Shown here: positions 35,871 through 55,354 of the stretch, piece after piece
Position numbering within the stretch: position 1 is the first letter of the stretch
Layout: each line of letters begins with the position of its first letter
From: Elusimicrobiota bacterium
GTDB taxonomy: Bacteria > Elusimicrobiota > UBA8919
Assembly (NCBI GenBank): GCA_040757695.1
Contig: JBFLWK010000012.1
Location: 1 to 56,481 of the forward strand
Direction: 5' to 3'
Length of the DNA: 56,481 nucleotides
Translations under genes and position numbers: made by a program
The notes under the pieces: generated by a model
Told to the model about the DNA's origin: nothing
The model's input: the letters and a program-made list of their open reading frames with translations, nothing else
Database searches by the model: none

Positions 35871-35888
35871 TGTAAGCATTTGCTTACA
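35871..35888 (-). repeat. TAAGCAAATGCTTA hairpin repeat, copy 2 (before korC)
   Basis: An exact TGTAAGCATTTGCTTACA copy that almost fills the gap between korB and korC, 17 nt before the korC ATG. No ribosome site lies between the hairpin and the start. Confidence 0.9.
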
Positions 35889-35891
35889 TTT

Positions 35892-36629
35892 TTATTTTTT
35901 ATTTTTATAAACACCTAACGGAAAAGTTTTGCCCAAAACATTATCTACCCATTTTACCGACTCAACAGGTGTCATCTGCCAGTCAGTTGGACACTGTGAC
36001 AAAACCTCAACTAATGAAAATCCAAGATTATTGATTTGGTTTTGAAATGCTTTTTTGATTGCCTTTTTTGCCCGCATGATATTTTTGGGGCTTGTCACCG
36101 AAACCCGTTCAAGATAGCAAACACCGTCAAGCGAGGATAGAAGTTCACAAACCTTTAGTGGATAGCCATCTCGTTTGGCATCTCTGCCAAATGGTGTAGT
36201 GGTTGTTTTTTGTCCTAAAATCGTCGTCGGTGCCATCTGTCCACCAGTCATCCCATAATTGGCATTATTAACAAAGATAGTCGTTATGTTTTCACCGCGA
36301 TTGGCAGCATGAACAATTTCAGCGGTCCCTATCGCCGCAAGGTCACCATCACCTTGATATGTAAAAACAATTCTATCCGGTAGACATCTTTTTATACCAA
36401 TCGCAACCGCAGGTGGTCTACCGTGTGCCGATTCGGTTACATCAAAATTCCAATAATAGTAAGCAAAAACAGCACAACCAACAGGCGCTACTGCTATTAT
36501 TTTTTCGCGTATATTTAATTCATCAATAACTTCTGCTATCAAACGATGTATCACACCATGCCCGCAGCCTGAACAGTAACTGTTTGTTTTTTCTGTCAAA
36601 CTTTCTGGTTTTAAAAAAATTGCTTTCAT
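35892..36629 (-). CDS. korB: 2-oxoacid:ferredoxin oxidoreductase beta subunit KorB
   Basis: KorB binds thiamine diphosphate. It has [17 protein letters not shown] near the N-terminus, [12 protein letters not shown] with the Mg-ThDP GDGD motif, and [16 protein letters not shown], the classical Kor/Vor beta signatures. At 245 residues it is normal. The start is 7 nt after a hairpin repeat (36637-36654) and has no visible Shine-Dalgarno. It sits in the order korD, korA, korB, korC. Confidence 0.95.
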
Positions 36630-36636
36630 AAATAAA

Positions 36637-36654
36637 TGTAAGTATTTGCTTACA
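36637..36654 (-). repeat. TAAGCAAATGCTTA hairpin repeat, copy 3 (before korB, one mismatch)
   Basis: TGTAAGTATTTGCTTACA, one base different from the consensus. In the transcript strand the changed base turns a C into a U-compatible position (G-U wobble), so the RNA stem can still pair. It lies 7 nt before korB. Confidence 0.85.
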
Positions 36655-36701
36655 AATTGTTTTATCGCAATTTAATGCCCCGAGCACATCGCTTGTTTTT
36701 T

Positions 36702-37760
36702 CTATATCTGAATTTTTTTGATTTTACCGATAATTCCTTCTTCATCAAAAACACCTCCCCCTGGTCTGCCTATAAACTCAACAGGACAAATACCATTAAC
36801 GGCAAGTTTTACATCTTCAACCATCTGTCCCATGTTCATTTCGGCAACAAGAATCTTTTTCGCTTTCCTTGCTATTTCTGTAATAATTTTCTCAGGAAAT
36901 GGCCATAGTGTTATCGGTCTGACAAATCCAATTTTGTTATTTGCTTGTCTTAATTTTTTTATCACCGATTTACAGATTCTTGCAACAATTCCAAAAGCAA
37001 CAATAACTATTTCGGCATCGTCAATAAAATCAACTTCACAGCGGACTTCTTTTTTTTTAATTTCATCATATTTTTCATTCAGATGCCAGTTATGCTTTTC
37101 AAGTTCACCCTCTTCCATAATCAACGAGCGAATAAATCTCGGTTCCCGTCCTGCACAGCCATCTAGTTTCCAATTTTTCTCGTGAACTCGTGAACTCGTG
37201 AACTCGTGAACAGTCGTTATCGGCTCTATCATCTGTCCTACAACACCATCAGATAGTATCATAACAGGATTCCTGTATTTATCTGCTAAATCAAACGCAA
37301 GATATGAAAAATCATATAGTTCCTTTACTGAATACGGTGCTAAAATAATCATTCGGTAATCTCCGTGCCCACCACCTTTTGTTGCCTGAAAATAATCTGC
37401 CTGACTTCCTGCTATATTTCCCAAACCAGGTCCACCTCGCTGAATATTGACAATCAGACAAGGTAATTCACAAGCACAAAGATACGAGATGCCTTCTTGT
37501 TTCAGCGAAATCCCAGGTGAAGATGACGTTGTCATTGTTCGTTTTCCACAAACTGCTGCGCCAAAAACCATATTGATTGCTGAAAGCTCACTTTCTGATT
37601 GGATAAAAACCCGACCAAGTTCCACCATCCTTTTTGACATATAGGCAGGCACTTCATTTTGTGGTGTTATTGGATAACCAAAATATGCATCTACACCTGC
37701 AGCAATTGCACCTTCACAAAGTGCAATATTCCCTTTCATCAAAATTTTATCGTTGTTCAT
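36702..37760 (-). CDS. korA: 2-oxoacid:ferredoxin oxidoreductase alpha subunit KorA
   Basis: KorA holds the pyrimidine-binding half of the active site. It has EGAIAAGVDAYFGYPITPQNEVP, MTTSSSPGISLKQEG, and NIQRGGPGLGN...QATKGGGHGDYR. It has 352 residues. Between VGQMIEPITTV and the next conserved segment, the peptide HEFTSSRVHEK comes from four CTCGTGAA units (37179-37210), an in-frame tandem repeat. It overlaps korD by 4 nt. TTGAGG precedes the start. Confidence 0.95.
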   Translation of the reverse strand: MNNDKILMKGNIALCEGAIAAGVDAYFGYPITPQNEVPAYMSKRMVELGRVFIQSESELSAINMVFGAAVCGKRTMTTSSSPGISLKQEGISYLCACELPCLIVNIQRGGPGLGNIAGSQADYFQATKGGGHGDYRMIILAPYSVKELYDFSYLAFDLADKYRNPVMILSDGVVGQMIEPITTVHEFTSSRVHEKNWKLDGCAGREPRFIRSLIMEEGELEKHNWHLNEKYDEIKKKEVRCEVDFIDDAEIVIVAFGIVARICKSVIKKLRQANNKIGFVRPITLWPFPEKIITEIARKAKKILVAEMNMGQMVEDVKLAVNGICPVEFIGRPGGGVFDEEGIIGKIKKIQI

Positions 37761-37960
37761 TTGTAAACCTCAATTGCTACATCGGGACACATTAGAAAAC
37801 AAAACCCACAGGAATTGCATTTTTCATTATTGATAAATTCAACAGGTTTATAGCCAAGTTTGTTTATCTTTTCAGAAATTTTAAGACATTCACTTGGGCA
37901 AACTGAAATACACAAATAACAGCCTTTGCATTTCTCAAGATTAATTTTTACTTTTTCCAC
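37757..37960 (-). CDS. korD: 2[4Fe-4S] ferredoxin subunit KorD
   Basis: This 67-residue ferredoxin has two complete CxxCxxCxxxCP clusters (Cys11, 14, 17, 21 and Cys48, 51, 54, 58). It passes electrons from the kor enzyme to soluble ferredoxin. The start is a GTG at 37960. It is the first gene of the kor operon and stands only 7 nt from the -10 box, so its mRNA is probably leaderless. Confidence 0.93.
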   Translation of the reverse strand: MEKVKINLEKCKGCYLCISVCPSECLKISEKINKLGYKPVEFINNEKCNSCGFCFLMCPDVAIEVYK

Positions 37961-37967
37961 TGCTTTG

Positions 37968-37996
37968 ATTTTACTATTTATATCTTATTTTGTCAA
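37968..37996 (-). promoter_or_regulatory. Promoter of the kor operon, predicted leaderless
   Basis: TTGACA (37991-37996) and TAAAAT (37968-37973) on the minus strand are spaced by 17 nt. The -10 ends 7 nt before the GTG start of korD. The -35 box touches the mogA stop codon. Confidence 0.75.
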
Positions 37997-38497
37997 CTAC
38001 TTTTTTTCATTTTTACAACTGTGTTCTGTTTTACCATGAATAATTTCAATTGCATGCGGGATTGACTGTAGAATAATTTTCAGGCTTTCTCTGACTGCTT
38101 TTTCCGAGCCAGGAAGGTTGATAATAAGCGTTTTTTTTCTCAATCCCGAAATACCTCTTGATAAAATTGAGTATTTAGTATTCTTAAAACCTTCTAATCG
38201 CATTATTTCAGAAAATCCTGGAACTTTTTTGTCAATAATTTCTTCCGTTGCCTCAGGCGTAATATCACGCGAGGCAAGACCAGTGCCACCCGTCGTAAAA
38301 ATTAAATCAAGTCTCAGTTTGTCAGACCATTCCTTCAATTTTTGGGAGATAATTTTTTTACTGTCAGGCACAATTTCATATTTTATTACTTTGCCTTTCA
38401 TTGATTTAACCATTTTTTTGATTAAAGGTCCTGATATGTCTGTCCGTTCACTTTTTGAGCCCTTGTCGCTACAGGTAAGAATACCGATTTTAATCAT
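37997..38497 (-). CDS. mogA: Molybdopterin adenylyltransferase-type protein (MogA/MoaB family)
   Basis: The protein activates molybdopterin by adenylation before metal insertion. The 166-residue MoCF-fold protein has IGILTCSDKGSKSERTDISG, the IFTTGGTGLASRDITPEAT core and NLPGSEKAVRESL. MogA and MoaB cannot be told apart safely by eye. It follows a MOSC gene with an 8-nt overlap, a common pairing. In this anaerobe the cofactor may carry tungsten, given the tup genes upstream. Confidence 0.9.
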   Translation of the reverse strand: MIKIGILTCSDKGSKSERTDISGPLIKKMVKSMKGKVIKYEIVPDSKKIISQKLKEWSDKLRLDLIFTTGGTGLASRDITPEATEEIIDKKVPGFSEIMRLEGFKNTKYSILSRGISGLRKKTLIINLPGSEKAVRESLKIILQSIPHAIEIIHGKTEHSCKNEKK

Positions 38498-38963
38498 TCT
38501 TCACCTCTATTTTATCGCCTGTTTTTATTTTACCGCCTGATAATACTTTTGCAAAAACGCCTGATTTAGGCATTATGCAATTCCCAACTAATTTTTTTAT
38601 AGCACAACCGGAATGACATTCTTTACCAATTTGAGTAATTTGTAATTCCGGCAAATGTAAGCATTTGCTTACATTTTTTTTAATAATTATTTTGTTGCCG
38701 ACTTTTGCTTCTGTCCAGTCAATTCCTTTAGTTGTTATATTTTCCGCAAAGTCACCTGGTTTTATTTTAATTTTTAATTTTGAATTTTGAATTTTGAATT
38801 TTTCTACTACTTCCCAACCGAGAAAACTAACCTGCCGATTACTACCGGAATGGGCATCACCAACAATACCCCAATTTCTTCTAATTAGAGCAATTGTTCT
38901 AATTGGTCTTTTCACGGTTCCTTTTTTTTTACTGATATTTATTGAAATTATTTTGCCTTGCAT
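38490..38963 (-). CDS. MOSC-domain protein carrying three repeat insertions
   Basis: MOSC proteins handle sulfur or molybdenum cofactor. This one (157 residues) has GDAHSGSNRQVSFLG, PGDFAENITTKG and the Cys-containing GKECHSGCAI, as in the MOSC proteins paired with MogA. Three separate repeats are in frame: a near-palindrome giving IRTIALI (38883-38904), 7-mer repeats giving KFKIQNSKLKIK (38761-38803) and the hairpin repeat giving VSKCLH (38656-38673). All leave the frame open. The start overlaps moaC by 35 nt, and no strong Shine-Dalgarno is visible. Confidence 0.85.
   Translation of the reverse strand: MQGKIISINISKKKGTVKRPIRTIALIRRNWGIVGDAHSGSNRQVSFLGWEVVEKFKIQNSKLKIKIKPGDFAENITTKGIDWTEAKVGNKIIIKKNVSKCLHLPELQITQIGKECHSGCAIKKLVGNCIMPKSGVFAKVLSGGKIKTGDKIEVKND
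38656..38673 (-). repeat. TAAGCAAATGCTTA hairpin repeat, copy 4 (inside MOSC gene)
   Basis: An exact 18-bp copy read as VSKCLH between the IIIKK strand and LPELQITQIG of the MOSC protein. Confidence 0.9.
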
Positions 38964-39480
38964 ATCCCAGAAAATGTAAGCATTTGCTTACATTTTTAAC
39001 CTTGCTTCTTTTCCAATATCCGGTTTTTCCACCGCTTTTTTCAAGAAGATAAATATTTGTTATATTAGCCGTTTTATCAACCGCTTTTATCATATCGTAA
39101 ATCGTAAGCCCTGCAACCGCTACCATCGTTATCGCTTCCATCTCGCAGCCAGTCGTATCAACCGCTTTGACTTCAGAAATCATTTTTATTCCATTTTTTA
39201 AGAACAAAAATTGCATATCACTATGAGTAATTTTTATCGGATGAGTAAGTGGAATCAAACTGCTTGTATTTTTTGCTGACATTATTGCAGCTAATTTTGC
39301 GGTTGTAAGCACATCACCTTTTTGGATTTCGTTTTTTTTGATTTTTTTTACTGCATCCACTGACATTTTAACTGTCCCTTCCGCTCTGGCATATCTTAAA
39401 GTTATTTTTTTTTGAGAAACATCAACCATTTGCATTTTTCCTTTTTTATTAAGGTGTGTGAAGTCTGTAAAAGCTTTCAT
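38929..39480 (-). CDS. moaC: Cyclic pyranopterin monophosphate synthase MoaC, with extended tail
   Basis: MoaC forms cPMP after MoaA. It has FTDFTHLNKKGKMQMVDVS, IPLTHPIKITH, EVKAVDTTGCEMEAITMVAVAGLTIYDM and the near-terminal SGGKTGYWKR. MoaC normally ends at that point. Here the frame continues some 25 residues ([17 protein letters not shown]) through hairpin copy 5 and into the MOSC start. So the repeat removed or displaced the original stop. AGGAGGT precedes the start. Confidence 0.93.
   Translation of the reverse strand: MKAFTDFTHLNKKGKMQMVDVSQKKITLRYARAEGTVKMSVDAVKKIKKNEIQKGDVLTTAKLAAIMSAKNTSSLIPLTHPIKITHSDMQFLFLKNGIKMISEVKAVDTTGCEMEAITMVAVAGLTIYDMIKAVDKTANITNIYLLEKSGGKTGYWKRSKVKNVSKCLHFLGYARQNNFNKYQ
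38975..38992 (-). repeat. TAAGCAAATGCTTA hairpin repeat, copy 5 (moaC tail, before MOSC start)
   Basis: An exact copy. It is read as VSKCLH in the extended moaC tail and stands 11 nt before the MOSC ATG. Confidence 0.9.
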
Positions 39481-39481
39481 A

Positions 39482-40441
39482 CTAACCTCCTATACTAATC
39501 ATACTTTTTATATTCATACAATCTTTGGGCTGATTAAACAAGTGCTTTTCTGGTTTTTTTGAGACAGCATCCAGAAATAAATTTTTTATTTCTTTGCTTT
39601 TCTTTTTTCCTACCCTTCTTATCGCTTTTTTCAAATCAATTTCTGTTGGATAACCCAAACAAGGTAGCAGTTTGCCGTTGGCAGTTAAACGCAACCGATT
39701 ACATTTTTTACAGAATGGCCGGGATATAGAAGAAATAAAACCGATTATTGCACCGTTAATTCTGTAATGTCTGCCAGGACCAAATCCTTCAATATTTACT
39801 GCACTGGGTTTGTATTTTGATTTGAACATTTGTTCAAATTGGGCAAAATTTGTTTTCTGATTGTTTACAAAAGGTATATGCTCTATAAACCTTAAAACAA
39901 GTCCGTTAGTTTTTGCAAATTCAACAAAATTTTTTATCTCCTGTTCATTAGCATCTGTTAAAACTACTGTGTTTATTTTTATCGGTTCAATACCTACTTC
40001 TTTTGCTCTCAAAATTCCATTGATTACTTTTTTTATGTTACCACCTCGTGTGATTTGAAAAAATTTTTTTTCTGAAAGAGTATCTAAACTTACATTTATT
40101 CTTTTGACACGCACTTTCTTCAGGTCTTTTGCAAAATCACCAAGTAAAATCCCATTTGTAGTAATAGAAAAATCTACTTTTCTCTGCGACAATTCGCAAA
40201 GAAACGGGATGAGCCCTTTTCTTACAAGTGGCTCGCCGCCTGTTATCCGAATTTTTTTTATACCAAGCGAAATTGCAACATCAACAATTTCCAGAATTTC
40301 TTCATAACGAAGAATTTCATTATATGGAATATTCTCAACACCTTCTTTTGGCATACAATATACACATCTTAAATTGCACCTGTCTGTAACTGAAATCCGT
40401 AGATAATCAATTACTCTTCCAAAATTGTCTATCAGTTTCAT
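39482..40441 (-). CDS. moaA: GTP 3',8-cyclase MoaA
   Basis: MoaA is the radical SAM enzyme that starts molybdopterin synthesis from GTP. The first cluster is TDRCNLRCVYC (Cys22, 26, 29). The C-terminal cluster is FCKKCNRLRLTANGKLLPC (CX2CX13C). The protein ends in Gly-Gly, as functional MoaA does. Length 319 is typical. The start lacks a Shine-Dalgarno and follows a hairpin repeat by 10 nt. I did not find a convincing Moco riboswitch upstream. Confidence 0.96.
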   Translation of the reverse strand: MKLIDNFGRVIDYLRISVTDRCNLRCVYCMPKEGVENIPYNEILRYEEILEIVDVAISLGIKKIRITGGEPLVRKGLIPFLCELSQRKVDFSITTNGILLGDFAKDLKKVRVKRINVSLDTLSEKKFFQITRGGNIKKVINGILRAKEVGIEPIKINTVVLTDANEQEIKNFVEFAKTNGLVLRFIEHIPFVNNQKTNFAQFEQMFKSKYKPSAVNIEGFGPGRHYRINGAIIGFISSISRPFCKKCNRLRLTANGKLLPCLGYPTEIDLKKAIRRVGKKKSKEIKNLFLDAVSKKPEKHLFNQPKDCMNIKSMISIGG

Positions 40442-40451
40442 AAATTCAAAA

Positions 40452-40469
40452 TGTAAGCATTTGCTTACA
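40452..40469 (-). repeat. TAAGCAAATGCTTA hairpin repeat, copy 6 (before moaA)
   Basis: An exact copy in the 32-nt gap between the tupC stop and moaA, 10 nt before the moaA ATG. Confidence 0.9.
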
Positions 40470-40473
40470 TTGG

Positions 40474-41541
40474 CTAACTGTTTTTTATCAAATGTACGGA
40501 TGTCGCCTTGAATGTAAGGTATATTTCATCACCAGTTTTAAGATTCATAGAAACTAACGATTGTTTAGTTATTACCGTCTCAAAATCTGTGCCTGCAACA
40601 TCTACAACCAGATTATATACAGCCCCGATATTTTCTATTTTTTTGATTTTTCCGTTAAAACAATTTCGGGCACTGGACTTAAACGGCATTCTTGATACAA
40701 AAATATCTTCAGCATGTAAAACTGCTGAAACTTCGGATATATTGTCATCAGCAACAACATTCATTTTAATACCATTGCTTAAGAAATACTTTTGACCGTT
40801 TTCTGTTGTAATTTTTCCGTTAAAAATATTTTCTGCAAACGAGTATTCTGCTATATCAACAGATATTGGCTGATTAAAAACTTCGTCAACAGTGCCCTTT
40901 TGTATAATTTTACCATTATTCATAAAAAATATTTTTTGACCGAACTTTCGTGCTTGTCGCAAATTATGTGTAGTTAACACGATTGTCTTTTTTAGTTTTG
41001 ATAATTCGGAAATCGTATTTTCAATCACTTTTACGCTTCCAGGGTCAAGATTAACAGTTGGTTCGTCAAAAATATAAACCTCAGGATGTAAAACAAGCAC
41101 TCTTGCTAATGATAGCTGCTGTTTTTCACCGCCTGATAGTGTTTTTGCGTATTGTTGATTTTTTTTGGATAAACCAACTTTAGTAAGTATAGTGTCTATT
41201 TCATTTTTGTAAATTTTCTTCTTGCTGACTCTTAACCCATAAACCAAATTATCATAAACTGTTCCACTTAAAATTACAGGTGTTTGGAAAACAAACCCTA
41301 TTCTTCTACGAAGATGTAGTTTGGTCTGTGCTGACATTTTTAAGACGGATTGGTTATCAAAAAAAATATCACCATTACAAATCTTGTCTAATAACGCAAT
41401 CTGTCTTAAAAGCGATGTTTTACCAGCGCCATTAGGTCCAACTATTACATTAGTACTACCTGATTCAAAAAGCAGATTTATATTTTTTAATACTTTAGCA
41501 GAACCGATTTTTTTACTAAGATTTGCTATCTCTATTTTCAT
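40474..41541 (-). CDS. tupC: Tungstate/molybdate ABC transporter ATPase with TOBE-type C-terminus
   Basis: This ATPase drives oxyanion import. It has Walker A GPNGAGKTS, the signature LSGGEKQQLSLAR, Walker B VYIFDEP and the H-loop TTHNLRQAR. Residues after about 230 form a TOBE-like domain (GKIKKIENIGAVYNLVVDV), as in ModC-type ATPases that sense the anion. Length is 355. The ATG overlaps the tupB stop by one nt. Tungstate rather than molybdate is inferred from the TupA/TupB partners. Confidence 0.88.
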   Translation of the reverse strand: MKIEIANLSKKIGSAKVLKNINLLFESGSTNVIVGPNGAGKTSLLRQIALLDKICNGDIFFDNQSVLKMSAQTKLHLRRRIGFVFQTPVILSGTVYDNLVYGLRVSKKKIYKNEIDTILTKVGLSKKNQQYAKTLSGGEKQQLSLARVLVLHPEVYIFDEPTVNLDPGSVKVIENTISELSKLKKTIVLTTHNLRQARKFGQKIFFMNNGKIIQKGTVDEVFNQPISVDIAEYSFAENIFNGKITTENGQKYFLSNGIKMNVVADDNISEVSAVLHAEDIFVSRMPFKSSARNCFNGKIKKIENIGAVYNLVVDVAGTDFETVITKQSLVSMNLKTGDEIYLTFKATSVHLIKNS

Positions 41542-42227
41542 TATTTTCCTTGAACTATTTGTAAAATTATGTTTAACATAAGCGCGACAAAAATAAGAAC
41601 GACACCTAATGCGATTCCGAATTCAAAATTGCCTTTCATTGTTTCAAGCGAAATTGCAGTTGTAAGAACTCTTGTTGCGCCTTTGATATTTCCACCGACC
41701 ATAAGCGTCATCCCTGTTTCGCCTATAATTCTTGAAAAACCGGTGATAATCGCTGTCAAAAAGGCAAACTTCTGTTCTTTAACTACTGTTAAAGCCATCT
41801 GTAATCTGCTTGCGCCAAGCGAATATGCCAAATCTTTAATATCTTTTGCGATATTTTTTAATGCTGAAACTGTTAATGCAATTATTATTGGCAGCGCTAA
41901 AATGGATTGGGCAATGATTATTGCGTAAGGTGTGAACAGAAATCCGAAAACACCAAGCGGACCTTTCCGGCATAAAAAAATATAAACCAAAAGCCCAATC
42001 ACAACTGCGGGAATCGCCAGCCAAGTATTAAAAAGCCCAATAATGAAACGGCGTAATTTGAATTCTTTTAATGCAACAAAAATACCGATGGGTATCCCGA
42101 AAAAACTCGCTATGATGGTGGCGCTTCCAGAGACAAGCAGAGAAATAAAAACGATTTCTAAAATCTCTTTTTTAGGCGGATACAAAAGTTGTAATCCCTG
42201 TCTGATACCTTCAAAAATATATTCCAT
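41541..42227 (-). CDS. tupB: Tungstate ABC transporter permease TupB
   Basis: This inner-membrane permease of 228 residues has five or six hydrophobic helices. The EAA-type loop SLGASRLQMALTVVKEQKFAFLTAIITGFSRIIGETG is characteristic of TupB/WtpB-like permeases, and the N-terminus (IFEGIRQGLQLLY) is also typical. It pairs with TupC (one-nt overlap) and the upstream binding protein. The stop of the porin gene touches its start. Confidence 0.9.
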   Translation of the reverse strand: MEYIFEGIRQGLQLLYPPKKEILEIVFISLLVSGSATIIASFFGIPIGIFVALKEFKLRRFIIGLFNTWLAIPAVVIGLLVYIFLCRKGPLGVFGFLFTPYAIIIAQSILALPIIIALTVSALKNIAKDIKDLAYSLGASRLQMALTVVKEQKFAFLTAIITGFSRIIGETGMTLMVGGNIKGATRVLTTAISLETMKGNFEFGIALGVVLIFVALMLNIILQIVQGK

Positions 42228-43219
42228 TAAAATTTAACCTGTAATTGTGTCATTATTAAATCGTTTTTTACCGACGGCGATTCTGTTTTTTGTTCGTAAT
42301 TATTTCTTAATAGAACATTCTTATCAAGAAAATAATTTATACCAAAAGTCCATCTGCTGTTTTTTTTGCCGATAGTTTTCAAACTGGAATCCCATACATC
42401 ATACCGAGCAAGCAAAACACAGGAAGAAAACATTGTGTAACCGATTGTAATATAATATCCTTCTTTTTTAGTTGTAGTTTTTTTACCTTCTGAAATAGAA
42501 TCATCTTGACCAAGAATATATTCGGCTTTACATAATAAAGTTTCTACTTCATATTTCATCTCTAATCCAATTCTATCTTTGTTAAATGTATTTGTGCTTA
42601 TTGCACTATCATAATAAGAGCTACCGAGATTAAGCCCTTTTACCGGACTAAAAACCAATCTAGCAACAGCCATTTTATTGTCATTCTCATCTGACTGATT
42701 TGACCCGCTACCATTCATAATACCTGCAAAAATGTTGCCTTTTACAGATGAAAAAGAAAACTCGCGCGATAGTTCAATCCCGATATCTCTTGTCGGTGAA
42801 ACTAAATTACTAATCACATCAGATTTGTTTATCAGTTCTAAATCCGCATCAGATATCACATTTTCAAGCGAAAATTTATACTTGAACTGTCCTAAACGGA
42901 GTGTAAAATAAGGCACTGATTTGACATCCAGATATATATCATAAAGTGTTTTGTTGTTGTTTGTATCCGTATTCGTACCTTCAAGCGAGAACGAAAAAGC
43001 CACATCTTTTGTTATATCTCCCTTTGCTCCGAAACGGGCTTGGGCAATTGTAAACCCGTCTTTATTTCCAGCTGTGGTATCAACCGTAAATCTTACACTT
43101 GCAAAACCGGTCGGTTTGATTTTTGGGGAATCCTCTACTGCATTTGTATCTGTTTCCATACAAAAAACCAATCTTGAAAACCAACCGATAAAAACCGTAA
43201 TCCAAAAAATCTTTTTCAT
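42227..43219 (-). CDS. Putative outer-membrane porin within the tungstate operon
   Basis: The protein (330 residues) starts with a signal peptide (KKIFWITVFIGWFSRLVFC). It then shows alternating beta strands with GFASVRFTVDT, FTLRLGQFKYKFSLE and RDIGIELSREF, like phosphate-selective porins O/P. It ends in Lys-Phe, the aromatic C-terminus of outer-membrane barrels. It lies between tupA and tupB and so may admit tungstate across the outer membrane. The start is the Met after GGGCGG-type sequence, seven codons into the frame. Confidence 0.75.
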   Translation of the reverse strand: MKKIFWITVFIGWFSRLVFCMETDTNAVEDSPKIKPTGFASVRFTVDTTAGNKDGFTIAQARFGAKGDITKDVAFSFSLEGTNTDTNNNKTLYDIYLDVKSVPYFTLRLGQFKYKFSLENVISDADLELINKSDVISNLVSPTRDIGIELSREFSFSSVKGNIFAGIMNGSGSNQSDENDNKMAVARLVFSPVKGLNLGSSYYDSAISTNTFNKDRIGLEMKYEVETLLCKAEYILGQDDSISEGKKTTTKKEGYYITIGYTMFSSCVLLARYDVWDSSLKTIGKKNSRWTFGINYFLDKNVLLRNNYEQKTESPSVKNDLIMTQLQVKF

Positions 43220-43240
43220 ACCGCCCCTTTTTTTGCTCAT

Positions 43241-43264
43241 TTGCTCATTTAGCTAAATGAGCAA
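43241..43264. repeat. Second copy of the GCTCATTTAGCTAAATGAGC palindrome
   Basis: The 20-mer at 43243-43262, extended to 24 bp by TT/AA, lies between tupA and the porin gene, 23 nt before the chosen porin start. It is identical in its core to the palindrome before thyX. The flank has an extra TTTGCTCA duplicate. Confidence 0.85.
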
Positions 43265-47013: not shown

Positions 47014-48180
47014 TTATTTTTGCCAGACACCGTATATTTTCTGACCGCAGATTTTACAACAACCGTTAACAACATTATTCTTGTCTACATAGAAACCGAG
47101 CCGTTTGATTAACAGTTTTTTGCATTTCGGACAGTATGTATTTTCACCTTCGTTACCCGGTGGAACATTACCAACATATACATATTTTAGTCCCTCATTC
47201 ATTGCAATTTTTCTTAAGTTCTCAACGGTAGAAACTGGTGTTGTCGGATAATTCAGCATTTTGTATTCCGGATGAAATCGTGTGAAATGTAGTGGAACAT
47301 CTGTTCCAATATTCTTTACAAGCCATCTTGCCATCTGACGCACTTCGTCGGGCTTATCATTAAGCGTAGGCACAACAAGATACACAATCTCTAAATGAAC
47401 ACCGGCTTGTTTTACCGTTTTTATTGTTTCTAAAACAGGCTCAAGTTGCGCACCGACAATATCTTCATAGTATTTTTTATTGAACGATTTTAAGTCAACT
47501 TTGTAAGCATCAACATATTTCAAAAGTTTTTTCAGAGGTTCAGGATTGATATATCCGCATGAGACAACCACATTTTTCAGTCCTTCTTTTTTTGCTAATG
47601 ACGAAATTTCAATCATATATTCGTAAAAAACTGTTGGTTCTGTATATGTATAGGCGATAACCTTTGCGCCACTTTTTTTAGCAGTTCTGACAATATCTTC
47701 AGGCGTGATATAAAGCGCCGAACTTTCATCAGGCATAATTTTAGAAATCTGCCAGTTCTGGCAGAATTTGCATCCGACATTACAGCCGGCAGTTGCGATA
47801 GAGAATGCTGCTTCCGACGGCAAAAAATGGAAAAATGGTTTCTTTTCTATCGGGTCAACATTTATTGTACAAGGTCGAGAATATGTAAGTGTATAAAGTT
47901 TGCCGTCTTTGTTTTCTCGGGTTCTACAGACACCTCGTTGGTTAGGTGCGATTGTGCATCGCCACGGACAAAGCCCGCATTTCACAAAATCGTTCGGTAG
48001 TTTTTCATAAAACTGTGCTTCTTTTGGCAGCACTTTTGTATCGTCATATTTCGGAAATCCCTGTGTATAAAGGCAGGTAAAAAGTTGACACGAAATATCA
48101 TTCCCGAATGGTGCTATCTGGAATCCAGAAAAAAGTAGAAATATAGAAACAAAAAGCACTAACCACCTTTTCTTTTTCAT
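47014..48180 (-). CDS. amrS: AmmeMemoRadiSam system radical SAM protein with N-terminal membrane segment
   Basis: This protein belongs to the AmrS family, which is found with Memo and AMMECR1 proteins. The N-terminal Cys set is CGLCPWRC...GVC (Cys68, 71, 75, 85). The radical SAM motif is CNVGCKFC (133, 137, 140). A C-terminal zinc ribbon has YCPKC...CCKICG. Residues 6-22 form a hydrophobic segment like a signal peptide or anchor, unusual for an oxygen-sensitive cytoplasmic enzyme. Neither Memo nor AMMECR1 is in the window. The gene starts 7 nt after its -10 box. Confidence 0.85.
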   Translation of the reverse strand: MKKKRWLVLFVSIFLLFSGFQIAPFGNDISCQLFTCLYTQGFPKYDDTKVLPKEAQFYEKLPNDFVKCGLCPWRCTIAPNQRGVCRTRENKDGKLYTLTYSRPCTINVDPIEKKPFFHFLPSEAAFSIATAGCNVGCKFCQNWQISKIMPDESSALYITPEDIVRTAKKSGAKVIAYTYTEPTVFYEYMIEISSLAKKEGLKNVVVSCGYINPEPLKKLLKYVDAYKVDLKSFNKKYYEDIVGAQLEPVLETIKTVKQAGVHLEIVYLVVPTLNDKPDEVRQMARWLVKNIGTDVPLHFTRFHPEYKMLNYPTTPVSTVENLRKIAMNEGLKYVYVGNVPPGNEGENTYCPKCKKLLIKRLGFYVDKNNVVNGCCKICGQKIYGVWQK

Positions 48181-48187
48181 ATCTTAA

Positions 48188-48216
48188 ATTATACTCAAAA
48201 ATGCCAAAAATTGCAA
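48188..48216 (-). promoter_or_regulatory. Promoter of the amrS operon, predicted leaderless
   Basis: TTGCAA (48211-48216) and TATAAT (48188-48193) on the minus strand with a 17-nt spacer. The -10 ends 7 nt before the ATG at 48180, leaving no room for a ribosome site. Confidence 0.75.
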
Positions 48217-48294
48217 ACAAAAAAAATGGCTGTCACCATCTCAGTCATTCTTGTAATTTTATTTATGACTCTAATGATTCTTATCTTTTTAACC

Positions 48295-48433
48295 CTACTT
48301 CGTTAAGTGTATCTTTAACTGATGGGATATTCAATAAGGTGTCATTACGAGCCGAAGGCGTGGTAATCTCAATACTAAAGACGAAATTGCTTCGGTTCCA
48401 CCTCGCAATGACAATTTCAACTTAACGAAGTAG
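48295..48433. repeat. 139-bp MITE-like element with 14-bp terminal inverted repeats
   Basis: CTACTTCGTTAAGT (48295-48308) and its exact complement (48420-48433) bound a core that itself begins GTGTCATTACGAGC and ends CTCGCAATGACAATT, the dispersed GTCATT-type repeat. The structure is nested, as if one element lay in another. No coding frame is supported. It occupies the gap between the divergently read amrS promoter and mntA. Confidence 0.75.
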
Positions 48434-48471
48434 AATTAATATATCCTTAATAAAAAGAATATATTTCCGTT

Positions 48472-48765
48472 TCATAAATAAACCACATTCCGTAAAATAT
48501 TTTTTTTCAATTCCCGTCGGATATCTTCTTTTGGGACAACTTCCGTTTTAACCCCCAAAATATCTTCCAGAAATATTTCCAATCCCGCTAGTTTTAGAAG
48601 GCTTATGGCCTCGTTAAAACTAACCAGAATATCAATATCGCTTCTTGGGGTTTGTGTGTTCCTGACATATGAACCAAAAACACCAATTTTTTTGACTTTA
48701 TATTTGTCGTGCAATTCAGTTTTATGTGCTTGTATTATTTTTTTGATTTCGTTGAGGGTTTTCAT
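48472..48765 (-). CDS. mntA: MNT-type minimal nucleotidyltransferase, orphan
   Basis: The 97-residue protein has GVFGSYVRNTQTPRSDIDILVSF, the GSxxR..T..SDxD nucleotidyltransferase motif. MntA proteins usually act as antitoxins that AMPylate a HEPN RNase toxin encoded next door. No HEPN gene is seen on either side, since the flanks hold only repeats. So it is either an orphan or acts on a partner elsewhere. Its own promoter stands 7 nt before the ATG. Confidence 0.8.
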   Translation of the reverse strand: MKTLNEIKKIIQAHKTELHDKYKVKKIGVFGSYVRNTQTPRSDIDILVSFNEAISLLKLAGLEIFLEDILGVKTEVVPKEDIRRELKKNILRNVVYL

Positions 48766-48772
48766 AACAAAA

Positions 48773-48800
48773 ATTATAGCAAAAAAACCTAAAAAGTCAA
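48773..48800 (-). promoter_or_regulatory. Promoter of mntA, predicted leaderless
   Basis: TTGACT (48795-48800) and TATAAT (48773-48778) on the minus strand with a 16-nt spacer. The -10 ends 7 nt before the ATG at 48765. Confidence 0.75.
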
Positions 48801-48810
48801 TAAAAAAATG

Positions 48811-49105
48811 ACCCTACCACCTGTCTGCAAAACAAAGTTTTGCTATTGTAAAAAGACAGATGGCAGGGTGACCATTACCACCCCAGCCCGGCGTTGGAAC
48901 AGAATTTGGGACAGGTTCTTGGATGAATTGCCATTCTGAAAATCAGTGTATCATTTTATCTTGCTACGAAATCTATTGTCATTGTCACACAAGTTTGAAA
49001 ATTTCAAGTCAGGCACCATTTCACAAGTCAGGCACCATTTCACCACCATTTCACCCCATTTCACCATTTCTCAGGCACCATTTCCCTCCATTCCCATTTC
49101 TTTAC
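48811..49105. repeat. Gene-free stretch with a hairpin and CAGGCACCATTT tandem repeats
   Basis: ACCCTACCACCTGTCT (from 48812) and AGACAGATGGCAGGGT (to about 48871) form an imperfect hairpin. Further on, CAGGCACCATTTC units with CACCATTTC and CCCATTTCAC variants recur from about 49012 to 49085, a degenerate short tandem array. Plus-strand frames here are low-complexity and not taken as genes. Nothing else was seen in the 387-nt gap. Confidence 0.65.
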
Positions 49106-49152
49106 CGTCTTCACTATTTCTTGATGTCATTTTATATAGATTTTTTCTTTTT

Positions 49153-49743
49153 TTATTTTTTACTTTCGTTCAATTTTTCTTTTGCCCTCTTTATATTTTC
49201 TATTGATGGTTGATGTCTGGTGTCAATTTTTAATACTTTCTCATAGAATTCTATTGCTTTTTCATAGTTACCATTACTAAATGCCTGTTGACCTTTTGTA
49301 AAATACTCGCGCATCTTTGACTTTTTCTCCTCATCTGATACTTCGAGTTTTTTAGTTTGTTCTTCTTTTTTCTTGTATTCAATTTTTTTTTGCTCTATCA
49401 AATCTAATGTAGCTTTTTCATTTATATAGATGGCTGTCATATAGGAATCGTAGATGCTCCAAACATACAAGAAACCAAATCCGCCACCGGTTAATAAGTA
49501 ACCTGCTCCTTTACCTACTTTACCATTATAAAAGCATCCACCACCAGGCAAAATTGCCCAGAGTGCAGCTAAATAAGGATTTTTTTTCTTAACAATTTTT
49601 ATATCCATAGTTGACAATCCCCAGATAAGTTTACTTCTTTCATCTGAGTCAAGAACATCTGGATAAAGTCCACTTGCTTTACATCTTTCAATTTTCCCTA
49701 AAACTCCACAGATAATCATAATAATAATTAAACATTTTTTCAT
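49153..49743 (-). CDS. Envelope protein with a DUF5683/TM2-like hydrophobic domain and TPR
   Basis: The 196-residue protein has a signal peptide (CLIIIMIICGVLG). A hydrophobic domain, NPYLAALWAILPGGGCFYNGKVGKGAGYL, resembles TM2/DUF5683-type membrane domains. It is followed by a Lys/Glu-rich coiled segment and one TPR (QQAFSNGNYEKAIEFYEKVLKID). The hydrophobic domain is related in layout to that at the end of the YidD fusion two genes upstream (KAALFSLIPGFGKIYSAK). It is the last gene of a four-gene operon. Function unknown. Confidence 0.6.
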   Translation of the reverse strand: MKKCLIIIMIICGVLGKIERCKASGLYPDVLDSDERSKLIWGLSTMDIKIVKKKNPYLAALWAILPGGGCFYNGKVGKGAGYLLTGGGFGFLYVWSIYDSYMTAIYINEKATLDLIEQKKIEYKKKEEQTKKLEVSDEEKKSKMREYFTKGQQAFSNGNYEKAIEFYEKVLKIDTRHQPSIENIKRAKEKLNESKK

Positions 49744-49773
49744 CTCATCACCCCAATTTTCTCTTATTAATTT

Positions 49774-50781
49774 TTATTGATACTTATATTTTAATATCAT
49801 TCCATTTAATATTTTTCTTACTCCAGCTTTAAGTACTAAATTTTTAGATTCATTATCATCTTTCAATTGAGGAACCTTCAATTTAGGTTTATTTATATCT
49901 CCCCAATCAATCTTCATATCTTCCTCATAAGAAGATGACCAGCCAGGAACCAGAAAAGGTAATGCCAAACCTCCGGTGAAAGTTAGTAAAGCACATGTCC
50001 CAAAAAACTTTGGTTTCTTAAGGTCTACTTCTATTCCTGACTCACCGTCTACAAACCCAGTACTAATTGTTTCACCTGATGTTGTATCCAAAATCTGTGC
50101 AGCTAGACATACTCTGTTAGAAGGATTGAAATCCAAACTTGGCCCTAATCCTCCCGGGGTTTCGTATCCTTTTTGCATTGCGTCTACATATCCCTTAATA
50201 TTATCTACAAGAGTAACCGCCTTCCAACGAGACCTCCAGACCCAGATAATTAAGACAGCATCGGCACCAAGTTTTTCTTTGAAAGTTAAGAGTTCGTTTG
50301 GCTGAATTGTATTAAAATTGATATCAACTATCTCAGTTTCAGAAAAATGCATATCAGATGAATATGCATACTGTCCACCAGCATAATAATCAGTTTTTTT
50401 TTGGCTACTTCTTTCCTCAACCACCAATGGTGAGGAAAGGCTTTGAACGGTAGAGCTACTAATCTGAATCAGTATTTCCTTTTTATCAACACAAGTAAAC
50501 AATTTTAATTCTCTTATTTGTGCTATAAATTCTTCTTGAATCCAGTCTAATTCACTTTCAGTGACTGGATAAGAGTATACAGTAGAATTAACCACAACAG
50601 CTAATTTCTTGATATTATTTACTTTCTTTTTTTCTGTCTGAAATGCATTTTTATAAAATTTTGACATTCTTTCCGATACGTCAACTTTTTCTGTTCCTTC
50701 TTCGGCTGAAGAATAACCATAAAAACCGAATATAAAAATCAAAACCGTCAATAATTCCCAGTATTTTCCATTTTTACTCAT
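49774..50781 (-). CDS. CsgG-like secreted envelope protein
   Basis: The protein (335 residues) has a signal peptide (WELLTVLIFIFGFYGYSSA) without a lipobox Cys. The middle shows KKLAVVVNSTVY, LFTCVDKKEI, KEKLGADAVLIIWVW and AAQILDTTSGETISTGFV, the strand-helix order of CsgG/LpoB/FlgT-type domains. A short hydrophobic LPFLVPGW segment lies later. It probably sits in the periplasm and assists envelope assembly or export. The ATG overlaps the YidD-fusion stop by one nt (TGATG) with GGAGG 5 nt before. Confidence 0.5.
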   Translation of the reverse strand: MSKNGKYWELLTVLIFIFGFYGYSSAEEGTEKVDVSERMSKFYKNAFQTEKKKVNNIKKLAVVVNSTVYSYPVTESELDWIQEEFIAQIRELKLFTCVDKKEILIQISSSTVQSLSSPLVVEERSSQKKTDYYAGGQYAYSSDMHFSETEIVDINFNTIQPNELLTFKEKLGADAVLIIWVWRSRWKAVTLVDNIKGYVDAMQKGYETPGGLGPSLDFNPSNRVCLAAQILDTTSGETISTGFVDGESGIEVDLKKPKFFGTCALLTFTGGLALPFLVPGWSSSYEEDMKIDWGDINKPKLKVPQLKDDNESKNLVLKAGVRKILNGMILKYKYQ

Positions 50782-52016
50782 CACGTCCTCCTTTTTTTGT
50801 GGTAACTACCACAAGAATTTCTATTCCACTCAATTAATGGCTCAATTTCTCTTTTTAGGTTATTCATAAACTCTTTTTCTTTATTACTGTTGTAATTAAT
50901 AGCTGCATCAGCACCACTATAAATATTGCCGGTGTAAAAAGAAAATGTAAATAATGACCAAATGACTGCCGAGGGATATACATTTTTGGTGTAGCAATCA
51001 TAAGCCAAATATCCTAAACCAGTAATTAAGAAAAAAGAGAATACCCCATCGGCTATTTTCGCGGAATAGATTTTACCAAACCCAGGTATTAAGGAAAATA
51101 GAGCGGCTTTTGTTGGCGATTTTTTCTTTAGTTTATTTACTACATTTAATTCATTTATTATCCTTTCAATGACTTGTTTCTCCGCTGGTTCAGTAAATTT
51201 TTCTCTTAATTGTATAAATTCATCGTTTGCTTCTTTCCAGCGTCTTTCCATTACATAACTCCATGCATACAAAAGTTTTGCTTTTTTAGCAATTTTGGGA
51301 TACTTTTCATCATTACAGATTTCAAAATATTTATTTCGTGCTAAATGGTATGCTTTTGTATCAAGGTAAATTTTACCCAGAGCTAATTGGGATACTAAAT
51401 AAATTTCATATGAGTCTATTGTGCATTGTTCAAAATATATTTTAGATTTTTTAAAATCACTTTTTTTTAGATAACATAATCCAATTTTGTAATATGAGTA
51501 ATTAAGAAATTTTGAATTTTGATTATAATGAACATATCTTGTATACTCAAGCAAAGCAGAATCATAACATTCATCAGAAAATAATTTATCAGCCAAATCT
51601 AAATTAGGCTCAACAGAAATAGTTTTTAATTTCTGATTCTCCACTAAGTTAAAGTCATCTTTTTTTTCATTTGTAAGATTAGCAAAAATATAATGTTTTT
51701 CAACCGGGTCGTTTCCCCATTCACCAAAATAATTACATCTTTGTAATCTATCCGATGCCATTAAAAAACCTGTAAAAAAGCCAAATTTTAAAATTGATTC
51801 TTTAGCGAAATTGGAACATGTAGGATTAAATCTACAAGTTTGGCCTTTAATGGTGGAAATATATTTTTGATAGTAATCAATTAATTTTATAGATGAGTCC
51901 TGTAATATAGAAGTTGTCTCTATATTATTTTCAGCAAATATTATTTCAAAAATAATAAATGTAAAGATACTCAACAAAAAAATATTTTTTTGATTTTTGT
52001 TTTTTAAAGTAAACAT
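50781..52016 (-). CDS. YidD-domain protein fused to TPR repeats and a DUF5683-like membrane domain
   Basis: YidD is normally an 80-residue factor that helps YidC insert membrane proteins. Here, after a signal-like segment, residues about 40-105 are a YidD domain: IDYYQKYISTIKGQTCRFNPTCSNFAKESI...RLQRCNYFG..NDPV. TPR-like helices follow to about 290, then a hydrophobic domain, KAALFSLIPGFGKIYSAKIADGVF. The start is the ATG after GGAAAG. The fusion, together with the neighbouring envelope genes, suggests a dedicated secretion or outer-membrane assembly function. That role is inferred. Confidence 0.7.
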   Translation of the reverse strand: MFTLKNKNQKNIFLLSIFTFIIFEIIFAENNIETTSILQDSSIKLIDYYQKYISTIKGQTCRFNPTCSNFAKESILKFGFFTGFLMASDRLQRCNYFGEWGNDPVEKHYIFANLTNEKKDDFNLVENQKLKTISVEPNLDLADKLFSDECYDSALLEYTRYVHYNQNSKFLNYSYYKIGLCYLKKSDFKKSKIYFEQCTIDSYEIYLVSQLALGKIYLDTKAYHLARNKYFEICNDEKYPKIAKKAKLLYAWSYVMERRWKEANDEFIQLREKFTEPAEKQVIERIINELNVVNKLKKKSPTKAALFSLIPGFGKIYSAKIADGVFSFFLITGLGYLAYDCYTKNVYPSAVIWSLFTFSFYTGNIYSGADAAINYNSNKEKEFMNNLKREIEPLIEWNRNSCGSYHKKRRT

Positions 52017-52096
52017 CTTTCCTTTTTTCAACTTTCAAAGTCTAACATTTCATCTGAAGTCTGGCACAAAATACCTTTTTATTTTATTTGCTGAAA

Positions 52097-53254
52097 CTAA
52101 AATCCTAATCTAATATTTATACATCTCAGGGCATAATTCTTTAGAGGTAACCGATATAACATTTCATGATAGTTTTTTGAAAAGCTAATTGTTAATGCAC
52201 ATGTAGATACACCAAAAGCTATATCCCCGGAATAACCAATTAGTCCCTCGTCAAATAAACCTTTTGAATAAGATACTCCAATATTCGACCCAACATAGAA
52301 ACTTATTTCTTTTCCAAATTTTTCTATATATTTATGTTTAGGTCTTAAAAAATTAATTCTCAGTTTAGATAAAACATAATCTAAACTGAACCAATCATCT
52401 TTTTTATAAATATTGAAAAAAATAGCTGAATTAACTGAAATAGATTCGTTTAGTGTAAGGTCTCCAAATCCAAGTCCGGCCTGATGTGTATTTTCATTCC
52501 TATAATAATTATAACTAACCGTTAGTTTCTTCCCAATATATTTAGCACCTTTATATACATCAAGTTTCTTTTCAGTAGAATTATATAAAGCTTTATTCTC
52601 ATAACCATATAAATAGAAATCAACTAAGCTTTTTGATTCTTTATATACATTTGAATAATATTTACCATCCTCTTTATATACTCCAAACTGTTTACTTCCG
52701 TCAGGAGCTGTCACAATATAAGGAGACCAGCCACCCAAAATAAAAAAATTGAAAATAATATTTTTGCTGATAATAAACCTTAACCCCATCAAATCATTAA
52801 CTTCCGACCAATCGTATATATTTTTATAATAAGAAGGAAGTTCATATTCAGGAACTATCAAGCGAACACCTTGATTTAGGAAAAAGAGAGCCATAGAAAA
52901 ATATTTCATTCCCCATCTATAATAAAATCCAAAATCCATTTGTTCTACGTTTATATTACATGAACCAACTGTTGTGGGAATAACAAAAATAATATCCTCA
53001 GCAAAGATGCCCGGAGTAATCATACTAACATCGCATAAGAATTTTGGATTGAATTTTTGTATCATCGCTTCATAGTGTTTGTATAATTCTAATATGTTGA
53101 GCGATTTTTTATGGATATATTCAAATGTTGCAGGATTTATTTCAGTGCCATTTGCTTTTATTAAGGAAATAAAATAAAAAAATAGAAAAGCAAGTACAAA
53201 AATGTTAAGTAGTCTTATTGATTTGTTCTGATTGAATTGTTTTTTTTCTTTCAT
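52097..53254 (-). CDS. Probable outer-membrane beta-barrel protein
   Basis: This is a 385-residue protein of unknown family. It has a basic N-terminus and hydrophobic signal (IFVLAFLFFYFISLIKA). Alternating amphipathic strands rich in Tyr and Phe follow (KLTVSYNYYRNEN, GLGFGDLTLNESISV, ISFYVGSNIGVSYSK). It ends INIRLGF with a C-terminal Phe, the usual barrel assembly signal. It is the first gene of the four-gene envelope operon, 81 nt before the YidD fusion. No substrate can be guessed. Confidence 0.6.
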   Translation of the reverse strand: MKEKKQFNQNKSIRLLNIFVLAFLFFYFISLIKANGTEINPATFEYIHKKSLNILELYKHYEAMIQKFNPKFLCDVSMITPGIFAEDIIFVIPTTVGSCNINVEQMDFGFYYRWGMKYFSMALFFLNQGVRLIVPEYELPSYYKNIYDWSEVNDLMGLRFIISKNIIFNFFILGGWSPYIVTAPDGSKQFGVYKEDGKYYSNVYKESKSLVDFYLYGYENKALYNSTEKKLDVYKGAKYIGKKLTVSYNYYRNENTHQAGLGFGDLTLNESISVNSAIFFNIYKKDDWFSLDYVLSKLRINFLRPKHKYIEKFGKEISFYVGSNIGVSYSKGLFDEGLIGYSGDIAFGVSTCALTISFSKNYHEMLYRLPLKNYALRCINIRLGF

Positions 53255-53680
53255 AAAATTTTAAACACTACCTTAATAACGAATTTTCTAAATCCTGAAT
53301 TACAAAGCAGATTAAAAAGCACACCTACAAAAAAACGGGAACAAGCCCTGCCATTACAAAACAAAAACGCAGACTGAAGGTCTGCGACTACAAAAGAATT
53401 ATTTTTATTGGTTGAGATTGCTTCACCCAGATTGCCATCAGGGTTCGCAATGACTTCTAAATTCTCAATTCTTAATTCTGAATTATTCAGGCATAGTTCT
53501 TGAGAGAGAGAGAGAGAGAGAGAGTTCAGGTGAGAGCATTAGCATAGATTCTCCTTAAAAGTTAGAGCGTGCTCCGATTTATCGGAGCATGACTACAAAT
53601 AATATAACAAAAAACCTTTATTTTGTCAAGCACTCTTTGTATTTTTTGAATTTTTTTATTTTGAGGTACATAACATATCA
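53255..53680. repeat. Gene-free 426-nt stretch packed with small repeats
   Basis: It contains the hairpin CGCAGACTGAAGGTCTGCG (53368-53386) followed by ACTACAAA, then a GAGATTGC..CGCAATGAC-type repeat (about 53415-53453). A TTCTCAATTCTTAATTCTG stretch like that at 34238-34260 follows. Then come a 23-nt GA dinucleotide run (53502-53524) and the hairpin TGCTCCGATTTATCGGAGCA (53570-53589), again followed by GACTACAAA. The second hairpin could end cstA transcription. No gene was seen. Confidence 0.7.
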
Positions 53681-55318
53681 TTAATTTCGCTTAAGAGGGT
53701 AGATATGTCGGAATTTTGTTTGAGCTTCTGTGAGAACAAAAACAGATAAAATGATAAGAAACAGTCCGATAAAAGCGAGTAAAAAATTACCCTGTTTGAT
53801 AAATTGAACCGTCTGATAAATTAATGCAGAAACAGTTGTCAGAAACATAAAAATCGCAGGATACAAGGTATACTTGATTGGTTTTTTTAAGTTAAAAAGA
53901 TAGCCTGTGATAACTATCAAAACTAGTGCTGCAATTAACTGATTGGATGCGCCGAATACAGGCCAGATTTTTTTCCAATCACTGAATGCCAGAACGCCTG
54001 ATAGTGCTACCACAACTAAAGTTGAAAAGTATTTGTTCTTGAAAATTTTTATACCAAACCCTTCACCAAAAAGTTCAGTTGCGATATATCTTGTAATTCT
54101 TGTAGCGGTATCAAGTGTGGTTATTACAAATGCATTCAATATCAAAATAGCGATAAATTTTCCGAATGAAGAACCAAAGATATTTTTTGTTATTTCACCG
54201 TATCCGGTAGCAAATGTACCAATATAATCACCTGACTTAATCAGTTCAGGATAAATAAGTTGCGGTGTGCAGGAAGCACCGGTCCAGTAAAGCCCAGCAC
54301 ACACACATAAAAGCGCAAGAATTGCCAGCACGCCTTCAGTAACCATTGCACCGTATCCAATTTTTTTAGCATCGCACTCGATAGCGATTTGTTTAGAAGT
54401 AGTGCCTGATGAAATCAACGAATGGAATCCAGAAACAGCACCACAGGCGATAAAGACAAACATCATTGGCCAGAGATTACCGATACGAGTATTAAAACCA
54501 GTTAATGCAGGAGTATTTATATTCGGATGTGATATTATCAGCCCAGCATATCCAAAAAGTAAGCCAAAGATAAGCAAAAATGCAGACAGATAATCACGCG
54601 GCTGCAGAAGAATATTCACAGGAATAACAGAGGCAATATAACAATATATTAAAAGCACAATCATCCAGAATTTTATATTGCTGACGATTACGGGCAGTGC
54701 ATTACCTAAAACCAGAAGTACAACCAAAAGTGCGAGTCCAGTAATTGTAGAAAGCGGATAATTCAATTTCCATACATAAATCATACAGCCGGTTAAAATA
54801 GCAACAAAAATAAGCCCGAAAGTAGGAACAACTATTTGGGGCTCGCCAACAAGCGTCTGTGCAGTTGTAGCGGTAAAAACAGCGATTACTAGAATTAAAG
54901 CGAGCAATAGAAAAACAGAAAAAATGATTTTTGTTTTTTTACCCATTACTTTTTCAGTAATATCACCGATTGATTTTCCCTCGTTTCTCACAGAGGCAAT
55001 CAGTGCTGAAAAATCATGCACTCCGCCGATGAAGATTGTGCCTAAAATTATCCATAACAATGCTGGTAACCAGCCGAAATACGCGCAGGCAAGCACCGGT
55101 CCTATAATAGGTCCAGCACCAGCGATTGATGAAAAATGGTGTCCGAAAAGTATCGTCCAGTGTTTCGCAGGAATATAATCCACACCATCATAAAGCGTTT
55201 CTGATGGCATTTTTCTTGATTTATCAATTCCCCATAATTTTTCAATTATGCTACCATAAAACTTATAGCCAATAATCAACAAAACAATCCCGCATATTCC
55301 GACAATCAACGAGTTCAT
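53681..55318 (-). CDS. cstA: CstA-family carbon starvation protein / transporter
   Basis: CstA-family proteins import pyruvate or peptides during starvation. The 545-residue form (shorter than the 700-residue enteric CstA) has about 15 membrane helices. Family motifs are YIPAKHWTILFGHHFSSIAGAGPIIGPVLA near the start, GGVHDFSALIASVRNEGKSIG, FIACGAVSGFHSLISSGTTSKQI and VFGASNQLIAALVL. Pyruvate uptake would feed the ferredoxin-linked 2-oxoacid enzyme elsewhere in the window. The start follows hairpin copy 7 by 18 nt and has no Shine-Dalgarno. Confidence 0.93.
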   Translation of the reverse strand: MNSLIVGICGIVLLIIGYKFYGSIIEKLWGIDKSRKMPSETLYDGVDYIPAKHWTILFGHHFSSIAGAGPIIGPVLACAYFGWLPALLWIILGTIFIGGVHDFSALIASVRNEGKSIGDITEKVMGKKTKIIFSVFLLLALILVIAVFTATTAQTLVGEPQIVVPTFGLIFVAILTGCMIYVWKLNYPLSTITGLALLVVLLVLGNALPVIVSNIKFWMIVLLIYCYIASVIPVNILLQPRDYLSAFLLIFGLLFGYAGLIISHPNINTPALTGFNTRIGNLWPMMFVFIACGAVSGFHSLISSGTTSKQIAIECDAKKIGYGAMVTEGVLAILALLCVCAGLYWTGASCTPQLIYPELIKSGDYIGTFATGYGEITKNIFGSSFGKFIAILILNAFVITTLDTATRITRYIATELFGEGFGIKIFKNKYFSTLVVVALSGVLAFSDWKKIWPVFGASNQLIAALVLIVITGYLFNLKKPIKYTLYPAIFMFLTTVSALIYQTVQFIKQGNFLLAFIGLFLIILSVFVLTEAQTKFRHIYPLKRN

Positions 55319-55336
55319 TTTTTAGATCCATTAAAA

Positions 55337-55354
55337 TGTAAGCATTTGCTTACA
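55337..55354 (-). repeat. TAAGCAAATGCTTA hairpin repeat, copy 7 (before cstA)
   Basis: An exact copy. The TAA within the repeat provides the stop codon of the upstream 103-residue gene, and the repeat ends 18 nt before the cstA ATG. Confidence 0.9.

Follow-up and report, generated by a model that had tools for sequence, protein, structure and literature searches.

The 18-bp palindrome TGTAAGCATTTGCTTACA, in which TGTAAGC and GCTTACA arms surround an AAAT centre, is, judging from sequence, probably the recognition site of a LexA-type wHTH mini-protein and one dialect of a set of palindrome-gene cassettes and solo sites. Its host (G000) is a 2.89-Mb Elusimicrobiota MAG. In the window, that is, the whole 56,481-nucleotide stretch that was analysed, the palindrome occurs seven times, once with a mismatch, exactly where an earlier note had placed it, compared with 0.17 copies expected by chance at up to three mismatches. 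The AAAT centre lies on the minus strand in all seven, the strand that encodes almost all genes of the window. These copies, a remnant of a candidate partner gene (ORF X, described below) and sites of other dialects are located as follows:

27267..27284, minus strand: 18-mer inside aroE, codons 157-163
35871..35888, minus strand: 18-mer at the junction of two oxoacid oxidoreductase (kor-type) genes, with a stop 3 nt before it and the next ORF 5 nt after it
36637..36654, minus strand: copy with one mismatch, sense TGTAAGCAAATACTTACA, adjoining the mini-gene remnant
36665..36715, minus strand: partner-gene remnant, the last 17 codons of an ORF X-family wHTH, overlapping the 3' end of the upstream gene
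38656..38673, minus strand: 18-mer within the MOSC reading frame
38885..38902, unstranded: other dialect, TTAGAGCAATTGTTCTAA with one mismatch, in the MOSC coding sequence
38975..38992, minus strand: solo 18-mer where moaC meets MOSC; the moaC ORF reads through it at its C-terminal end
39821..39838, minus strand: other dialect, TTTGAACAAATGTTCAAA, in the moaA coding sequence
40452..40469, minus strand: 18-mer, with an ABC transporter gene ending 4 nt before it and the moaA start 10 nt on
55337..55354, minus strand: 18-mer before cstA, its TAA forming the stop codon of the preceding ORF
55696..55713, unstranded: other dialect, TTAGTACAATTGTACTAA, intergenic; a near-match brackets the wHTH gene at G000:C4:7496

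The 18-mer at 40452..40469 has no counterpart at that site in G004 or G006. A perfect 20-bp palindrome, GCTCATTTAGCTAAATGAGC, is also present in the window (at 15258 and 43250) and in L196, L199 and L204, amounting to about 10 copies in the 678 kb examined, which consist of stretches picked around copies of the 18-mer and are thus biased towards copies. It is sometimes paired around CCGACG, and no partner was found for it.

Five of the window copies had been read in the earlier note as a structured translation or processing element, placed before start codons without a Shine-Dalgarno (SD) sequence. Of the window copies, 38656 lies in the MOSC frame and 38975 in the moaC ORF, and because these two and the copy at 27267 are read within ORFs, they are not simple leader elements. 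Neither is the missing SD sequence a special pattern, given that an SD-like 4-mer was found for only 113 of 408 genes of at least 200 aa (28%), which makes its absence uninformative. The mismatch at 36637, thought to preserve pairing as RNA, in fact changes the loop-closing C-G of the sense strand to C-A, with a G-U pair formed only in the antisense RNA, and the resulting sense hairpin has a 6-nt loop and a stability of -7.6 kcal/mol, versus -11.2 kcal/mol for the unchanged 18-mer.

Genome-wide, the host carries 50 exact copies of the 18-mer and six with one mismatch, and there is no clear excess of two- or three-mismatch matches in the host, their number being close to chance (scaled from the window expectation). 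The centre is always AA/TT and never AT or TA. When positions are assigned by mechanical, uncurated ORFs, the 54 distinct copies divide into 14 in genes, 17 at junctions or in other intergenic DNA and 23 in a composite of about 80 bp; for 10 of the 54 an ORF start follows within 25 nt, and for 13 a stop precedes within 25 nt. Checked on both strands for distance to starts and for orientation, the genome bears out an orientation bias and not a near-start placement. The orientation lock seen in the window loosens to 37 copies in the same orientation relative to transcription, 10 in the opposite one and 7 ambiguous, with a ratio of 26:3 outside the composite and 11:7 inside it. Replication polarity cannot be separated from transcription as the cause, since the GC skew matches the gene strand almost throughout. 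Such a bias has no explanation from a near-symmetric site and counts against the LexA-site reading. With most copies in genes, after genes or in the composite, the proposed role in translation or processing ahead of SD-less starts gains no support; the dispersed palindromic repeat that had been offered as the alternative comes closer to the evidence, which supports the repeat being real, biased in orientation and apparently undescribed.

The composite is intergenic and consists of the 18-mer, TTTGAATTTTGCTCGTCGGTAAATTTTGGTTTTT and then a second palindrome, CAATTAGnnCAAATGnnCTAATTG, with GCTCGTCGGTAAA between the two palindromes (for example L005:1100-1200 and L020:1480-1590, among L001-L059). 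A near-match of this second palindrome, with an AATT centre, also brackets wHTH genes on contig C4. In a GTDB scan, the closest named relative among the matches listed is an Elusimicrobia groundwater MAG. The matches listed also include TGTAAGCAAATGCTTACA in many Pseudomonas, Moraxellaceae and relatives (for example L060 and L066), and in Pseudomonas it lies within longer palindromes between genes, after an acyl-CoA-dehydrogenase-like gene. We treated these Pseudomonadales copies as unrelated to the host system; they occur once per listed stretch, have differing flanks and are probably a terminator.

The candidate partner was found in the gap between moaC and MOSC. In G006, two exact 18-mers in this gap bracket ORF X (L290:8913-9152), which encodes a stand-alone LexA-type wHTH of 79 aa and scores 49 bits against PF01726 (cut-off 23.7). 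An alignment-based AlphaFold model of ORF X has a pLDDT of 89.6, and its best PDB matches are LexA-DNA complexes; this model was used instead of a single-sequence one, which was poor (pLDDT 60.7). The same locus is empty in G004, holds the 18-mer, the wHTH gene and a second 18-mer in G006, and is reduced to the solo 18-mer in the host. Directly upstream of copy 36637, the host retains the remnant listed above, which shares 72% identity with G006 ORF X over 18 aligned residues (E = 0.0025 in its own genome). Among 61 genomes the 18-mer is present in only two, namely those with ORF X or its remnant. Despite the 50 perfect sites, this 17-codon remnant is all that was found in the host genome, with no intact ORF X orthologue, and the missing intact partner for the 18-mer dialect is the main weakness of our best reading. 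A viral origin was also considered and rejected: no relative was found in viral contigs, and phage records give only weak matches (<60% identity), several of which are annotated as LexA-like repressors.

At least 19 stand-alone wHTH mini-genes, at least 18 of them besides ORF X, were recovered in a family-wide search, from genera g1, g3 and g5. All 19 mini-proteins match PF01726, the LexA N-terminal wHTH, and they are about 63-100 aa long and lack the S24 autopeptidase/dimerisation domain. The host has a separate full-length LexA of 210 aa (G000:C36), and elsewhere in the phylum, among the 295 genomes sampled, nearly all matches are as long as a full-length LexA. In 17 of the 19 mini-genes an ORF end carries a palindrome of the form X..CAnnTG..X', and in seven both ends do, versus 40 and 8, respectively, of 177 control small ORFs, taken from stretches that were themselves chosen around 18-mers. 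Examples from this set are:

G002 mini-gene: CAAAAAGGACATTTGTCCTTTTTG on both sides
G000:C116 mini-gene: GGACAAATGTCC on both sides
G000:C4:10065 mini-gene: TTAGTCCAATTGGnCTAA on both sides

Among closely related mini-genes the same half-site is kept across genera, such that ISKSAAH/ISKSTAH mini-genes go with GGAC in G000, G007 and G002, FSSRNTAHYYI mini-genes with ATAGAGC in G000 and G007, and FKSLS mini-genes with GTAC in G007 and in G053, a member of another family. Recognition helix and half-site correlate over 18 pairs (p = 0.002) but no longer do so once near-duplicates are taken out (p = 0.30), and the correlation is just as good for the remainder of the protein; a fine recognition code was therefore rejected, its statistics being carried by close relatives. 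The mini-domain is also found fused in frame to other genes. It forms the C-terminal end of a prephenate-dehydrogenase-like gene in the host (L288, G000:C110:3657-4712), with one CCGAACAAATGTTCGG in the coding part and two after the stop, and in G053 it is joined to a LacI-like regulator; in these fusions palindromes mark the junction or the end. Additionally, an ORF on G000:C63 contains three CGAACAAATGTTCG in a row at 17-bp spacing (L206:2780-2814) and a fourth near its end (3440).

Palindromes of this architecture are over-represented. Stems around a C-AAAT-G centre number 52 for AAGC, 20 for GAAC and 8 for GGAC in the copy-biased 678 kb, each with an expectation below 0.3, and near-palindromes with a CA..TG core number 142, versus 7-46 for seven other cores. 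Counts of GNNCAAATGNNC against its reversed control are 155/33 in G000, 74/12 in G007, 55/9 in G006 and 52/11 in G004, an enrichment of 4.7- to 6-fold in genomes that all carry mini-genes, compared with 58/44 (G001), 25/34 and 38/49 in three genomes without them. No enrichment is seen in G003 and G005, and G002, with two mini-genes, is only weakly enriched (54/42).

The in-gene sites of trpB (which has two), argD, trpS and glyQ most likely arose without a change in length. Across the site, the first three genes show gap-free alignment to solved homologues or family orthologues, and glyQ is gap-free against seven of seven family orthologues; the exception is trpB of G002, which lacks 6 bases at the second of the two sites. 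Sites of this kind are at odds with simple insertion and count against the LexA-site reading. Structure alignments of aroE and apgM are gapped near the site, which leaves insertion versus replacement unsettled there, and the MOSC site sits in an indel-tolerant loop. In G006 and G004, this MOSC loop carries a tandem repeat of GACTTCGG in frame (L238, L239), where the host has its 18-mer. The glyQ copy is antisense and exactly conserved in two genera: the glyQ site and one in an FAD-oxidase gene are identical codon for codon in G000 and G006, versus a codon match at identical residues of 57% for glyQ and 54% for FAD-oxidase, and each lies within its gene's longest run of identical codons. The glyQ site is missing from the six remaining family genomes, among them G004 and G007, which belong to the same genus as G006. 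Several of the in-gene targets are amino-acid or tRNA-synthetase genes (trpB, argD, aroE, trpS and glyQ).

We infer that the mini-protein, as a DNA-binding domain only, would bind its own palindrome, X..C-AnnT-G..X', and that such sites may spread and influence transcription. In the proposed arrangement, each mini-gene would adjoin its own palindrome and would often be enclosed by two direct copies of it, and the palindromes would also occur solo, paired or in longer composites across the genome, with a solo palindrome at a gene junction representing the putative leftover of a palindrome-gene-palindrome cassette after gene loss. The bound mini-protein would repress its own gene and, at solo sites, would act as a local block or modulator. 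The full, solo and empty series at one locus, the in-frame fusions and the repeated composite suggest mobility; no transposase is attached to the mini-gene cassettes and no target duplication is visible at them. A further-reaching idea, which we put forward tentatively, is that the cassettes form a minimal selfish or drive-like unit. A LexA-type gene of roughly 250 bp would lie between copies of its own operator, and the operators would multiply, including by length-neutral replacement in conserved genes, and would have diversified into many dialects within one family. The open-access literature searched yielded no account of stand-alone LexA wHTH genes that lie between palindromes.

The main rival is a host regulon, in which a LexA-family regulator would act on sites selected singly, including in-gene roadblock sites of the type considered for CodY and further regulators that have intragenic sites. 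It would explain the length-neutral, conserved in-gene sites better than the cassettes do: gapless alignment at both trpB sites, trpS and argD points to an origin by substitution, the glyQ and FAD-oxidase sites are far better preserved between G000 and G006 than the codons of their genes, and amino-acid and tRNA-synthetase genes recur among the targets. However, an ordinary regulon would not drop so sharply from perfect and one-mismatch copies to no clear excess at two or three mismatches, the glyQ site is missing from two genomes of the genus of G006, the composite repeats and the cassette states look mobile, and the host is without an intact regulator for this dialect. We regard the regulon as unlikely, and it and the palindrome-gene cassettes may both be real.

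Far less probable is an RNA-level hairpin serving translation, processing or 3' stability, along the lines first proposed. Its stability is considerable, its flanks are A/T-rich, and 26 of the 29 copies outside the composite have the AAAT loop on the sense strand; nevertheless, few copies lie near starts, three of the six one-mismatch copies break the closing pair of the AAAT-loop RNA, the antisense glyQ copy is exactly conserved, and the palindrome dialects track a DNA-binding protein. We give similarly little credence to a REP element mobilised by a Y1 (RAYT) transposase. The host does possess six Y1_Tnp genes, the composite contains CGTCGG and paired inverted copies exist, but the 18-mer is at none of the six loci, those in L036, L038 and L040 have GTAG-tagged palindromes (GTAGTCGGC...GCCGACTAC), and solo 18-mers bear neither a GTAG nor a CGTC tag.

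The nearest known kind of element is the GTAG/CGTC REP repeat, with its REPINs and its REPtrons with RAYT transposases (PMC3733652, PMC3116915). As in REP/RAYT systems, the palindromes are short and dispersed, solo or paired, located at gene ends and in genes and present as several dialects per genome, and a dedicated gene has repeats of its own type beside it; unlike in those systems, the partner is a LexA-type DNA-binding domain without a catalytic domain. An unpaired GTAG tag is absent at the 54 flanks inspected, which are A-rich or T-rich, and CGTC is found on none of the solo copies, with the CGTCGG of the composite separated from the palindrome by at least about 12 nt. GTAG...CTAC palindromes (GTAGTCGGCGTTTAAACGCCGACTAC and variants) beside Y1_Tnp genes (L036:2375, L038:1426, L038:1763 and L040:1742) form a probable separate REP/RAYT system in the host genome.

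The Gram-positive-type LexA operator is a GAAC-N4-GTTC box. The mini-genes share with LexA the PF01726 wHTH, and their palindromes have arms around a 4-nt centre, apparent half-sites as in LexA-type operators, with the dialect CGAACAAATGTTCG being equal to the Gram-positive-type box. They differ from LexA in that the proteins lack the S24 part, many paralogues with differing half-sites occur per genome, and most sites of the host system lie within metabolic genes or at their ends. Rickettsia palindromic elements (RPEs) are also read in frame in functional genes; however, RPEs insert and lengthen proteins, whereas the trpB, trpS, argD and glyQ sites are gapless and the 18-bp unit is linked to a partner gene. 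To our knowledge, where a known family of bacterial palindromic repeats has a partner gene, that gene encodes a transposase. In the present case it apparently encodes a bare DNA-binding domain, which raises the questions of by what means the sites spread and why conserved genes retain exact 18-bp copies, and the approximately 18 mini-gene/palindrome pairs in one family provide a natural data set on how the specificity of a LexA-type recognition helix changes.
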